Assembly (NCBI RefSeq): GCF_001483135.1
Contig: NZ_LNAL01000006.1
Location: 806,003-870,002, forward strand
DNA: 64,000 bases
Origin: Solirubrum puertoriconensis
GTDB taxonomy: Bacteria > Bacteroidota > Bacteroidia > Cytophagales > Hymenobacteraceae
Direction of reading: 5' to 3'
Part shown: positions 14,534-24,548 of the stretch, piece by piece
How positions within the stretch are numbered: the stretch's first letter is position 1
Layout: each line of letters begins with the position of its first letter
The notes under the pieces: generated by a model
What the model saw: only the letters and a program-made list of their open reading frames with translations
Database searches by the model: none
Told to the model about the DNA's origin: nothing
Translations under genes and position numbers: made by a program

Positions 14534-15289
14534 ATGCTTAAGCGAGATTTCCTGAAGAACGGTTTGCTGACGATTGTTGGCGCCATGGTAAGCCCCAGCC
14601 TCCTGGCCTACGCCCGCGACGAAAAGCTGCTGCGCGAAGCCCGCGCTACGCCCATTGCCGATGGCCCCTTCACGCTGCCGCCGCTGCCGTATGCCAACAA
14701 TGCGCTTGAGCCGCACATCGATGCGCGAACCATGGAAATCCACCACGATGCGCACCACAAAACCTACGTTTCGAAGCTGAACGAGGCGGTGGCCGGCAAA
14801 CCGCTCGAGAAAATGTCGCTGGCGCAGCTGCTGGCCTCGGCCAGCAAGCAGCCCGATGCCGTGCGCAACAACGCCGGCGGCCACTGGAACCACTCGTTCT
14901 TTTGGCAGCTGATGGCCCAAAAGGCCGGCGGCCAACCCACCGGCGAGCTGGCCGCGGCCATCACCAAGGATTTCGGCTCGTTCGACAAGTTCAAGGAAGA
15001 GTTTACAAAGGCTGCCACGGGCCGCTTCGGCTCGGGCTGGGCCTGGCTCATCCACGATCCTAAAGCAGGCAAGCTGGCCATTACCTCCACGCCCAACCAA
15101 GACAACCCGCTGATGGACCTACCCGGCATTCAGCGCGGTACCCCGCTCATCGGCCTCGACGTGTGGGAGCACGCCTACTACCTCAAGTACCAAAACAAGC
15201 GCCCCGACTACGTGGCCGCTTTCTGGAACGTGGTAAACTGGAGCGAGGCCGGCAAGCGCTACGACGAAGCCCGCAAAGCGAAAGGCTAA
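14534..15289 (+). CDS. sodA: Superoxide dismutase, Mn-type, exported
   Basis: The start at 14534 gives a signal region [20 protein letters not shown] that resembles a Tat signal (KRDFLK instead of RRxFLK), so the enzyme is probably periplasmic. The mature part is a full Fe/Mn superoxide dismutase with ligands His70, His120, Asp209 and His213. The tracts [16 protein letters not shown] and [10 protein letters not shown] are those of Mn enzymes rather than Fe enzymes. It converts superoxide to oxygen and peroxide. A strong terminator follows. Confidence 0.92.
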
Positions 15290-15313
15290 TTCGCTTTGCT
15301 GAATTGCCTAGGT

Positions 15314-15349
15314 AAAATGCCGCTCCCGAACCATCGGGAGCGGCATTTT
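15314..15349 (+). terminator. Intrinsic terminator of the superoxide dismutase gene
   Basis: A perfect 16-bp stem from AAAATGCCGCTCCCGA with a 4-nt loop and terminal TTTT, 24 bp after the stop codon. Confidence 0.88.
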
Positions 15350-15394
15350 GCTTTAGAAGTCTCATTATTAGCAGGGATTAAAGATGCCGCGATG

Positions 15395-15561
15395 CTTTGC
15401 GCAACGTCCTGCTGAACTTGTAGAAGCATCTCTGCCGCTTCCTAGGTCGTCATGCAGAGCCGCGGGCGAACCGCAGGTCAGCGTAGCTGAGCATCTCGCC
15501 GTATGGTGACTTCTATCGGGCTTCAGCACGCGAGATGTTTCGCTTTAGGCTCGACATGACG
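15395..15561. repeat. Intergenic repeat region with imperfect palindrome
   Basis: GTCATGCAGAGC (15449-15460) and GCATCTCGCC (15491-15500) are mirrored by GCGAGATG (15530-15537) and CTCGACATGAC (15550-15560). The adjoining 15395-15440 has the same vocabulary (GAAGCATCTCTGCCG). Such palindromic GTCATGC...GCATCTC repeats are, from memory, common between genes in Hymenobacter. No ORF is present. The rest of 15562-15700 is featureless AT-richer DNA. Confidence 0.55.
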
Positions 15562-15706
15562 GGCCATTGTAAATGCCACGAAGCGGGAGAGGTGCTTCAC
15601 CGGAGCTTACTACAAAGTTTTTGTGTCTACCGCTCACACAACCTTGAGCAAGACGACTAATTAAAATGCCTAATTTCTTCTCTTGAAAAATTATTTACAC
15701 GAATTA

Positions 15707-15737
15707 TTTGCATTAGAAATTATACTCTTTACTTTGG
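15707..15737 (+). promoter_or_regulatory. Promoter of the asnA leader transcript
   Basis: TTTG at 15707-15710, a 19-nt spacer and TACTTTGG at 15730-15737 match the Bacteroidota promoter TTTG-N19/21-TAnnTTTG at all but one position. Transcription would begin near 15743, 24 nt before the leader start codon. Confidence 0.75.
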
Positions 15738-15766
15738 CAATACCAAACGCCCTTAAAGCGCTTATC

Positions 15767-15841
15767 ATGTTTCAGTTCGCCAATAGCCTCAATAATCAGA
15801 ATCGGAATAATCAATTCCGACGAGGAAGGCTATTGGTCTGA
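15767..15841 (+). CDS. asnA leader peptide, Asn-rich, 24 residues
   Basis: ATG at 15767 to TGA at 15839-15841 encodes a 24-residue peptide beginning MFQFANSLNNQNRNNQ. Six of the residues are Asn, all with the codon AAT, five of them packed into 15791-15811. The window otherwise favours AAC, so these codons would respond strongly to charged tRNA-Asn. The gene directly downstream is asparagine synthetase. The peptide sits inside an RNA with alternative hairpins and a terminator, as in the trp and his leaders of enteric bacteria. Its job is to be translated, not to act as a protein. No known sequence was compared. Confidence 0.85.
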   Translation: MFQFANSLNNQNRNNQFRRGRLLV

Positions 15842-15904
15842 TCGACAGACGTAAAATCATAAACTGATTTCAATAAGCCTTCCGATTTCGGAAGGCTTTT
15901 TTTT
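15772..15904 (+). promoter_or_regulatory. Transcription attenuator controlling asnA
   Basis: Region 1 (15779-15789, GCCAATAGCCT) pairs with region 2 (15827-15837, AGGCTATTGGT), enclosing a 7-bp hairpin at 15802-15820 (TCGGAAT/ATTCCGA). Region 2 (GGAAGGCTATTG, 15824-15835) can instead pair with region 3 (15871-15883, CAATAAGCCTTCC), 12 bp with one bulged base. Region 3 also forms the 5' arm of the terminator. A ribosome stalled on the Asn codons (15791-15811) would cover region 1 and allow 2:3 (antiterminator, asnA on). A ribosome reaching the stop at 15841 would cover region 2 and allow the terminator (asnA off). GTCTG/CAGAC (15836-15850) is a further hairpin. Confidence 0.85.
15875..15904 (+). 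terminator. Attenuator terminator upstream of asnA
   Basis: 10-bp perfect stem AAGCCTTCCG / CGGAAGGCTT with an ATTT loop and a run of eight T (15897-15904). It lies 135 bp before the asnA start, with no gene of normal size before it, so it acts as a conditional terminator. Confidence 0.9.
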
Positions 15905-16039
15905 CGCCTATACACGGCCGTTACCGGGCTTTGTGCATCGAAAAAACATAGTGTTTTCTCGGTTGGGCGGAGCCTTGTCTAAATATTTATAATTCCGAAA
16001 TCCAAACACAATTCTTTAATCCAAAACCACACATTTCGC

Positions 16040-17077
16040 ATGGAAGCAACCCTTGCCCCCGCCAAAGCCCTGAGCCCCGCCGAACTGCTCAAAACCGAAG
16101 AAGCCATTGGCTTCGTGAAGGACACGTTTGCCCGCGAGCTGGCCCGGCAACTGCAGCTTACCAAGGTGTCGTCGCCGATAGCAGTGCTCGACGGCACCGG
16201 CATCAACGACGACCTGAACGGCGTGGAGCGCCCGGTGTCGTTTCCAATCAAAGCCCTGGCCGAGCGCCGCGCCGTGGTGGTGCACTCCTTGGCCAAGTGG
16301 AAGCGCCTGCGCCTAACAGAGCTTGGCATTCCGGCAGGCCGCGGCATCCTGACGGACATGCGCGCCCTGCGCCCCGACGAGGACTACTCGCCCATTCATT
16401 CGATTTACGTCGATCAGTGGGATTGGGAAAAGCACATCTTGCCCGAGCAGCGCACCGTGGCTTTTCTGAAAGAAACCGTGGAGAAAATTTACGACGCCTT
16501 GCGCACCACCGAGCTGCGTGTGGCCGAAGAGCACGCGGACATCGTGCCCGTGTTGCCCGAGCAAATCACCTTTATCCATGCCGAAGAGCTGCTGCAGCGC
16601 TACCCCACGCTATCGGTAAAGGAGCGCGAAACCGCCGCGGCCCGCGAGTACGGTGCGGTGTTCATCATGGGGATTGGCGGCGAGCTGAGCCACGGCGAAA
16701 TCCACGACGGCCGCGCCCCCGACTACGACGACTGGAGCACCGCAACCGAGCCCGGCCTGCGCGGCCTGAACGGCGACATTGTGCTGTGGCACCCCGTGTT
16801 GCAATCGGCCTTCGAGGTATCGTCGATGGGCATTCGGGTGGATAAGGCGGCTTTGCTGCGCCAGCTGGCGCTGCGCGGCTGCCCCGAGCGGGCGGCCCTA
16901 GGTTTCCATAGCCTGTTATTGGCCGGGCAGCTAACCGAAAGCATTGGCGGCGGCATTGGGCAGTCGAGGGTGTGCATGTTTATGCTGCGCAAGGCGCACA
17001 TCGGGGAGGTGCAGGTAAGCATCTGGCCCGAAGCCGTGCGGCAAGAGCTGAGCAGTGCTGGTATAGCGCTGCTGTAG
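16040..17077 (+). CDS. asnA: Aspartate-ammonia ligase (asparagine synthetase A)
   Basis: 345 residues, close to the usual ~330. It makes asparagine from aspartate, ammonia and ATP in the cytoplasm. Family landmarks include AVLDGTGINDDLNGVERPV, SIYVDQWDWEKHI, FIMGIGGELSHGEIHDGRAPDYDDW and the class-II synthetase-like motif 3 GGGIGQSR (residues 303-310) near the C-terminus. The gene stands alone behind the Asn-rich leader and terminator, which gives it end-product control by charged tRNA-Asn. The 135-bp stretch between terminator and ATG holds nothing else recognised. Confidence 0.96.
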   Translation: MEATLAPAKALSPAELLKTEEAIGFVKDTFARELARQLQLTKVSSPIAVLDGTGINDDLNGVERPVSFPIKALAERRAVVVHSLAKWKRLRLTELGIPAGRGILTDMRALRPDEDYSPIHSIYVDQWDWEKHILPEQRTVAFLKETVEKIYDALRTTELRVAEEHADIVPVLPEQITFIHAEELLQRYPTLSVKERETAAAREYGAVFIMGIGGELSHGEIHDGRAPDYDDWSTATEPGLRGLNGDIVLWHPVLQSAFEVSSMGIRVDKAALLRQLALRGCPERAALGFHSLLLAGQLTESIGGGIGQSRVCMFMLRKAHIGEVQVSIWPEAVRQELSSAGIALL

Positions 17078-17278
17078 GCAACCCAAAGGTTGGTGGGTTG
17101 GTGAGGCGAGGGTGGGCCGGCGTAGGCTGGCGCACCCTCGTTTGCTGCCACCGATATGGCCACAAACCTAGGCGCAAATGGGCAGGCAAGCAGCGAAAGA
17201 ATGGCCCGCCCGGGCAAGTTAAACTAAACGAAGCGTAGCCTTTAGCCGTAGTAGGCAGCCAAGCTAACCAATACTACC

Positions 17279-18025
17279 ATGGCTATGAACCAACCTCAGT
17301 CCTCCTCGAACCAAGGTGCCCAAAATGGCACCAACGCACAATCCGACAACAACACGCAAGGCGGCGGCTCGCTGCTCAACCAGGCCCAAAACTGGCTTAG
17401 CCAAGGCCGCGACCTAGTAGGCCAACTGCCCGAGCCGGTACGCAACGTGGGTACCAATCTGGGCTCTAGCATCGGCCGCCTCAGCACTACGCAAAAAGTA
17501 GTAGGCGGTGCGCTACTGGCCCTAGGTGTGGGCTACTTGGCCACCCGCGGCCGCACCGGCGGGCAGCGCGGTACGGCAGCTACTTTGCAGGAGCTGCTGC
17601 TGTTCGTGAACGACCGCATCGAAGGCTACCAGCGCGCCGTGGACGAAAGCACCGATGCCGAGCTGCGCGGCTACTACAAGCAGCTGGTAAGCCAGAGCCA
17701 GCGCTTTGCGGGCATCCTCAACGATTACCTGCGCGAAGAAGGCGGCGGCCGCGAAACCAAAACCACCATCAAGGGCAAGTTCTACCGCGCGTTTATGGAG
17801 GCCAAAGCCGCCGTAACGGGCTACAACGAAAACGCCATCCTGGGCTCGAACATCTACGGCGAGGAGTGGGCTATTAAAGCCTACAAAGAAGCCCTGGCCG
17901 ACCGAACCCTGACCGGCGAGTTGCGCCAGGAAGTGCAGCGCCAGTACGATCAGTCGCTGAAAACCTACGAGCGCCTTAAGCAGCTGAAGCAGCAAAGCAG
18001 CAACAGCGGCTCGGGCCAGGCCTAA
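17279..18025 (+). CDS. DUF2383 / PA2169-like four-helix protein
   Basis: 248 residues. A Gln/Asn-rich disordered N-terminus (residues 1-35) is followed by a hydrophobic segment (VVGGALLALGVGYLATRG, ~74-91) and a four-helix region: LQELLLFVNDRIEGYQRAVD, YYKQLVSQSQRFAGILNDYL, then AIKAYKEALADRTLTGELR. The helices match the DUF2383 family, ferritin-like bundles of unknown role often linked to envelope stress. Alone on the plus strand, with a strong terminator behind it. Confidence 0.75.
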   Translation: MAMNQPQSSSNQGAQNGTNAQSDNNTQGGGSLLNQAQNWLSQGRDLVGQLPEPVRNVGTNLGSSIGRLSTTQKVVGGALLALGVGYLATRGRTGGQRGTAATLQELLLFVNDRIEGYQRAVDESTDAELRGYYKQLVSQSQRFAGILNDYLREEGGGRETKTTIKGKFYRAFMEAKAAVTGYNENAILGSNIYGEEWAIKAYKEALADRTLTGELRQEVQRQYDQSLKTYERLKQLKQQSSNSGSGQA

Positions 18026-24447: not shown

Positions 24448-24548
24448 GTTTTTATATGGTCAGGACTTGGCACCGTTCCCGGGAGTTACCCCGCTGGTGG
24501 TTGCCGGCGTTTCGCAGAGCCTGTCTCTCCACGCCTCTGTATAAAAAC
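24448..24548 (-). promoter_or_regulatory. SAM-I (S-box) riboswitch aptamer
   Basis: Read on the minus strand, a 9-bp P1 stem (GUUUUUAUA / UAUAAAAAC) encloses the S-box core in order: ACAGAGGCGUGGAGAGAC, GGCUCUGCGAAACGCCGGCA, ACC, a GC-rich P3/P4 region, then GGUGCCAAGUCCUGACC. These blocks follow the SAM-I consensus (AGAG, GAGGGA, GGCCC, GCAACC, GGUGC-AA-UCC). It binds S-adenosylmethionine and normally lowers expression when SAM is abundant. It sits 23 nt downstream of a consensus promoter's expected start and controls the ATP-grasp/monooxygenase pair. Confidence 0.92.

Follow-up and report, generated by a model that had tools for sequence, protein, structure and literature searches.

A putative asparagine-specific leader-peptide attenuator upstream of asnA in Solirubrum puertoriconensis and related Bacteroidota

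Leader-peptide attenuators of trp, his, thr and ilv genes are known in Proteobacteria, and the 1:2 protector stem is characteristic of the trp design, not of attenuators in general. According to PMC2965389 (2010), Proteobacteria and Actinobacteria were until then the only groups with demonstrated leader peptides, to which that work added Firmicutes. For the Bacteroidota, the element Bacteroid-trp (RF01692) is listed in a table of PMC2864571; PMC6414381 places it upstream of trp genes and compares it with Trp leader attenuation. PMC9723704 presents strong clues that amino-acid operons of Flavobacterium psychrophilum are subject to leader attenuation, and for Bacteroides thetaiotaomicron PMC7366714 describes short ORFs that recall leader peptides.

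A leader located upstream of asnA was analysed in Solirubrum puertoriconensis, within positions 806,003-870,002 of contig NZ_LNAL01000006.1 (GCF_001483135.1). This whole stretch of 64,000 nt is referred to as the window, and all coordinates are window positions (Table 1). The leader resembles the proteobacterial trp, his, thr and ilv attenuators in its ORF rich in codons for the amino acid of the pathway, its mutually exclusive 2:3 and 3:4 pairings and its terminator ahead of a biosynthetic gene (cf. PMC2965389). It differs from them in its Asn codons, the gene asnA, its Bacteroidota host and a 1:2 protector that is present in the window and not in most relatives. With Bacteroid-trp it shares the phylum and the place upstream of an amino-acid gene, although Trp and not Asn is concerned there; RF01692 was not among the Rfam matches of the window, of 12 other leader loci (both at the gathering score) or of the E-value list covering 15650-16060. 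The inferred F. psychrophilum attenuators are similar in belonging to the same phylum and to amino-acid biosynthesis operons (PMC9723704). The main text of that paper contains neither “asnA” nor “asparag”, and an asparagine case in its table S7 is possible.

The original prediction knew of no described asnA leader attenuator in the Bacteroidota, where it called attenuation little documented. No Asn leader or asnA attenuator was found in the literature searched, which comprised titles and the beginnings of abstracts, with subscription papers mostly outside it; leader attenuation in the phylum, however, has already been reported for other amino acids. The mechanism class is known, and the specificity for asparagine, in amino acid and in gene, is new as far as our searches show. 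If the reading given below is true, the list of amino acids sensed through leader-peptide attenuation would be extended to asparagine, in a phylum for which the mechanism is sparsely documented.

Table 1. Coordinates of the features described (window positions; the last row gives loci).
Feature	Positions	Strand	Description
Probable promoter	15707-15736	+	TTTG at 15707-15710, 19 nt, TACTTTG at 15730-15736
Leader peptide ORF	15767-15841	+	MFQFANSLNNQNRNNQFRRGRLLV, 24 aa, then TGA; six Asn codons, all AAT
Region 1	15779-15788	+	GCCAATAGCC; partner 15828-15837 when untranslated; mostly not kept among relatives
Local hairpin	15802-15820	+	TCGGAATAATCAATTCCGA; spans the last Asn codons; from the window fold
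Region 2	15824-15835	+	GGAAGGCTATTG; within the final leader codons; antiterminator 5' strand; duplex test and covariation
Small hairpin	15854-15870	+	AAATCA...TGATTT; between regions 2 and 3; from the window fold
Region 3	15871-15884	+	Antiterminator 3' strand and terminator 5' arm; duplex test and covariation
Intrinsic terminator 3:4 and U tract	15875-15904	+	Hairpin 15875-15898, eight T at 15897-15904; terminator scan and covariation
Second conserved stretch	15939-15978	+	Between terminator and asnA; hairpin-capable; alignments of relatives' spacers
asnA	16040-17077	+	Aspartate-ammonia ligase (asparagine synthetase A); TIGR00669, PF03590
thrA leaders			L263, L247, L249, L260, L264-L267, L269-L271; Thr- or Thr/Ile-rich ORF and terminator

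The product of the controlled gene matched TIGR00669 with 410 bits (cut-off 292.8) as well as PF03590. Direct reading of the sequence confirmed the predicted 24-codon ORF with its six AAT codons, which start at 15782, 15791, 15794, 15800, 15806 and 15809; five of them are packed into the 21 nt of 15791-15811, and the stop codon is 15839-15841. The short ORF thus carries a run of codons (six Asn in 24) for the end product of the gene behind it, as attenuators do. The predicted terminator with its eight T upstream of asnA was found as well. The Bacteroidota promoter consensus contains the element TAnnTTTG. The predicted consensus promoter was recovered only approximately: promoter-like boxes are present, but TACTTTG at 15730-15736 is one base short of that element and is near-consensus only. 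The promoter boxes were read from the sequence, and a best-match scan with no control was run over 37 leaders of the Hymenobacter clade; a transcription start near 15742 was assumed.

In order to evaluate the switch, the duplex between region 2 and positions 15871-15883 of region 3 was computed. It contains one bulge and has an energy of -18.0 kcal/mol (z -4.9); when the region-2 strand was shuffled 300 times by mononucleotides, so low a value never arose. Folding with a ribosome placed on an Asn codon, whichever of the six was chosen, and RNA polymerase at 15886 gave a 2:3 pairing probability (P23) of 1.00, while a ribosome at the leader stop gave a terminator probability (P34) of 0.97. In these folds the ribosome footprint was assumed to reach 10-13 nt past the A-site codon. 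The predicted alternation between 2:3 and terminator was therefore reproduced with the ribosome over the Asn codons. Region 3 is shared between exclusive terminator and antiterminator pairings, as found by duplex energy, folding and covariation, and in the folds alone, with the assumed footprint, a stall frees region 2 and a ribosome at the stop codon covers it. When the full-length leader was folded at equilibrium, the antiterminator of the window persisted only for stalls at Asn codons two to four; in the main set (49 modules, described below), 22 modules had an antiterminator above 0.5 at their best stall site. This limited persistence implies that the decision of the switch must fall during transcription.

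These data suggest that the leader is very probably a ribosome-mediated transcription attenuator through which asnA is controlled by the availability of Asn-tRNA. The gene is probably switched on once charged tRNA for asparagine becomes scarce, a reading strongly backed by the comparison of sequences. We infer that the leader would be translated, that the ribosome would stall in it and that termination would respond to asparagine in the following way. Transcription would begin near 15742, and a ribosome would enter the leader ORF at 15767. When Asn-tRNA is plentiful, the ribosome would pass the Asn codons as far as the stop codon and cover region 2, region 3 would then pair with region 4, and RNA polymerase would stop near 15904. 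When Asn-tRNA is short, the ribosome would stall on the AAT codons, region 2 would stay free to pair with region 3, and the polymerase would continue into asnA. In the window, the 1:2 stem would also close region 2 when the leader is not translated. An AsnRS is encoded in the same genome (TIGR00457, 647 bits), and free asparagine therefore probably sets the charging level of the tRNA. The local hairpin at 15802-15820, similar to an inverted repeat that is readable in relatives, could be a candidate pause hairpin. Such a sequence-defined switch would serve for testing transcription-translation coupling in the Bacteroidota.

The ORF, the pairings, their covariation, the codon bias and the distribution of the module were established computationally on a sample of relatives. 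Loci of asnA were collected from genome contigs (the best 80 of at least 590) and from overlapping sets of the genus (8/8 genomes with asnA), the family (46/150), the class (23/395) and the phylum (21/395). The resulting 156 loci correspond to 151 distinct upstream regions. Five of these were shorter than 600 nt (only 42 nt for L015) and four had no ATG at the chosen start, so that some misses of the detector may be artefacts. The detector required an ORF of at most 50 aa with at least four Asn within 12 codons, followed by a terminator. It was positive in 46 of the 151 upstreams, which bears out the expectation that relatives keep an Asn-rich ORF. The density was at least six Asn in 12 codons in 44 of the 46.

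The same counts bear on the notion that an AT-rich, Asn-rich stretch happens to lie beside an ordinary terminator. Terminator-like sites are indeed common around the gene (8 found in 15000-17400 vs 3.3 expected by shuffling). However, none of 920 dinucleotide shuffles of the positive upstreams contained an Asn-rich ORF with a terminator, and the detector set to each of the other 19 amino acids was positive in 0-6 of 151 upstreams. Together with the covariation of 2:3 and 3:4 and the over-use of AAT in leaders, described below, these figures make coincidence extremely improbable, and it was rejected on the detector counts, the shuffles and the other amino acids.

The main set comprised 49 modules; L208 and L209 are outside this set and outside alignment A3, and one overlapping ORF of L090 was excluded by hand from later analyses. 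Two members are doubtful, L006 with four Asn and L152 with a GTG start and a long branch. Compared with mononucleotide shuffles, 44 of the 49 modules had a stronger 2:3 duplex (z below -2); clear 2:3 pairing was missing in five. In the 49-row alignment, 8 of the 10 terminator pairs were changed on both sides, a result beating all 500 shuffles in every measure. For the antiterminator, 5 of the 8 core pairs were changed on both sides (9 cells), a level that 0-2 of 500 shuffles attained. With the 2:3 partner shifted by one column, changed pairs and pair types were as numerous or more so, but the share of paired cells was 65.1% at most vs 92.6% unshifted, and the covariation score was lower. In L112, regions 2, 3 and 4 were changed together. 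The RNAalifold consensus of the modules contained the terminator only. The small hairpin at 15854-15870 showed 80.3% paired cells vs 78.0% in shuffles and weak covariation. Of the three stems for which a covariation test had been proposed, 2:3 and 3:4 thus display compensatory changes, whereas 1:2 is mostly not kept among relatives.

When the ribosome was stalled in the middle of the Asn cluster with RNA polymerase just past region 3, the upstream pairing of region 3 exceeded 0.5 in all 49 modules, with a mean of 0.83 vs 0.42 for shuffles. At most 2 of 40 shuffles reached the value of the module in 42 of the 49; for the window, 3 of 40 did. With the ribosome at the stop codon, the terminator was scored in 49/49, which is nearly certain by construction because region 2 is masked. 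In seven of the 49 modules (L088, L092, L093, L096, L108, L134, L139) the leader stop overlaps the terminator or is at most 11 nt away from it, unlike in the trp layout, and region 3 would be blocked by a ribosome that rests on such a stop.

Codon use was compared in 37 of the 38 Hymenobacter-clade rows, as for the spacer counts below, L139 having been dropped by the identity cut-off; the name of the clade was taken from the named loci L001-L004 inside it. In 40 long ORFs of the window, AAT accounted for 113 of 767 Asn codons. In the 37 Hymenobacter-clade loci, it accounted for 3 of 131 Asn codons in the asnA genes and 212 of 284 in the leaders. Between the leaders of relatives AAT and AAC are swapped, while Asn itself is retained, which would point only indirectly to translation of the leader. 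An AT-rich AAT could also serve the folding of the RNA, so the bias alone is no proof of codon sensing.

The exchange of AAT and AAC with retention of Asn also speaks against sensing by a T-box, which would bind uncharged tRNA, or by a riboswitch for a free ligand, with the ORF being incidental. T-boxes occur at Asn genes in Firmicutes, which would favour such a device. No Rfam match at the gathering score was obtained in the leader region or at 12 other leader loci. All 11 weak matches in 15650-16060 overlap the terminator, the best being Phe_leader at 32.7 bits (gathering score 55). A T-box or listed riboswitch was rejected, no T-box match being present even in the E-value list for 15650-16060, and this kind of sensing is considered very improbable.

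The original prediction described the layout as that of the trp and his leaders, with mutually exclusive 1:2 and 2:3 pairings. The leader ORF, the 2:3/3:4 alternative and the terminator agree with it, but the protector is not general among relatives. In the window without a ribosome, 1:2 pairing in the full leader had a probability (P12) of 1.00, and region 2 was held upstream (0.83) with RNA polymerase just past region 3, so the exclusive pairings hold there. Under the same conditions, region 2 was held upstream in only 8 of the 49 modules and paired with region 3 in 37. This would place a trp-like protector outside the conserved design, whose core, judged from the sequences, is the 2:3/3:4 pair together with a region 2 placed near the end of the ORF. 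Since the 1:2 stem is absent in most relatives, the translating ribosome itself may permit termination there.

In a protector-free version of the same device, untranslated RNA would read through and termination would occur only during translation of the leader; such a device would sense general translation as well as Asn-tRNA. Those 37 modules with free 2:3 pairing, and the position of region 2 within or just behind the leader ORF, are consistent with it. On the other hand, the region 2 of the window itself is held upstream, and full-length folds without a ribosome favour the terminator (> 0.7) in 49/49 modules, as a matter of equilibrium and not of kinetics. We give this version somewhat less than an even chance. 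A wider proposal, which we hold only tentatively and consider rather doubtful, is that the Bacteroidota have an attenuation design of their own. It would lack a protector, region 2 would lie in or just behind the last leader codons, and the translating ribosome would be the sole device that permits the terminator. In the tandem second modules (L008, L112, L117, L208, L209), a Pro-Pro brake would be added at a distance of 0-7 nt ahead of the putative region 2; with Asn in good supply, it would hold the ribosome on region 2. The leader and asnA would move between lineages as a self-regulated cassette.

Those five loci carry two consecutive Asn leader-terminator modules upstream of asnA; among their ten ORFs, two were identified from TTG starts. 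Behind the Asn run, at the distance given above, Pro-Pro is present in 5/5 second modules and in 0/5 first modules, and in the main set it occurs in three of the 49 modules, all of them second modules. Clear 2:3 pairing (z below -2) was found in 5/5 first and 1/5 second modules. L117, L208 and L209 come from one family, so the tandem forms amount to about three independent cases. We infer that Pro-Pro could act as a proline brake in the second modules, which yields a direct prediction about EF-P. Both the protector-free and the tandem forms look unusual, and they would indicate how much of the trp model can be removed without loss of function.

Within the family sample, the module was present in 37 of the 46 asnA-bearing genomes and missing in 9. 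It occurred in 37/37 asnA-bearing genomes of genera g1 and g5, three of them counted via identical loci, and in 0/9 of genera g3 and g4. Distant carriers in the Bacteroidota include Myroides (L021), Vaginella (L023), a Bacteroidales MAG (L008), L112, L117 and L119. In the order of G423, asnA was present in 5 of 46 genomes, three of which have the module (L117, L208, L209), all in tandem. L112 (genome G461, tandem leader) belongs to an order in which 1 of 36 genomes has asnA, which suggests joint transfer of leader and gene. On a quick tree of 153 AsnA proteins the leader label requires 6 changes vs 41.3 with shuffled labels; several long branches are unsure, among them L152 and L008. The gene asnB was found in 145/150 family genomes. 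Control of asnB by the same leader was rejected, since the module was found in 0/20 asnB upstreams of genera g1 and g5.

A covariance model was built from all 49 modules and run over the 150 family genomes, with stricter filters and 20 candidates scored per genome, which makes absence elsewhere weak evidence. It gave 39 matches below E 1e-15. Of these, 37 are the asnA leaders of asnA-bearing genomes, as expected by construction, and only two lie elsewhere. In L244 and L245 (genomes G043 and G067) an Asn leader and its terminator are kept while asnA is not detectable. Such orphan leaders could be either a relic or a trans-acting RNA. Their leaders are 84% identical, against 72% in each of the two flanks, and the neighbouring convergent ORF is 83% identical.

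It could be argued from these orphans, which keep the leader, the Asn codons and the terminator and are more alike there than in the flanks, that the short transcript with its end near 15904 has its main role in trans, as a small RNA or peptide, cis control of asnA being secondary. The concentration of strong model matches at asnA (37/39) argues against this, and the similarity of the convergent ORF means that the orphans may represent one recent loss. A role mainly in trans is accordingly regarded as improbable, and attenuation of asnA in cis is retained as the preferred reading.

Among 69 weaker matches of the model, 14 were fetched. Two of them are leaders before thrA (L247, L249), both Thr/Ile-rich; the remaining 12 have a terminator, and no leader was recognised in them. 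The genome of the window itself contains a Thr-rich leader ORF, MYFSISTTTTTTTTRLGWGAVGVC, with a terminator before thrA (L263, G000:C8, upstream of thrA at 271798). It resembles the asnA leader in organism, leader ORF and terminator, and differs in its Thr codons and in the gene that follows; thrL of E. coli is the comparison for a Thr leader before thrA. A Thr- or Thr/Ile-rich leader with a terminator was found in 11 of 32 thrA upstreams, a count from a scan run with no shuffle control that includes the two starting cases. Leader attenuation thus seems to operate at two or more loci in this organism. A pattern scan for similar terminators in the genome of the window returned the asnA terminator only, its loop limit of 10 excluding the thrA terminator.

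The second conserved stretch, 15939-15978, has no Rfam match and was compared among the spacers of relatives. The consensus fold of 9 rows of genus g1 contained 15 pairs, none of them changed on both sides. RNAalifold gave no structure for the 28 other Hymenobacter-clade spacers matching this stretch, and a structure drawn by hand from one of the 28 had modest support only. In several g5 rows the counterparts of the stretch end with GTGCC and a T run, resembling another terminator. Elsewhere in the window, a SAM riboswitch (RF00162, 67.3 bits) was detected at 24449-24547 on the minus strand.
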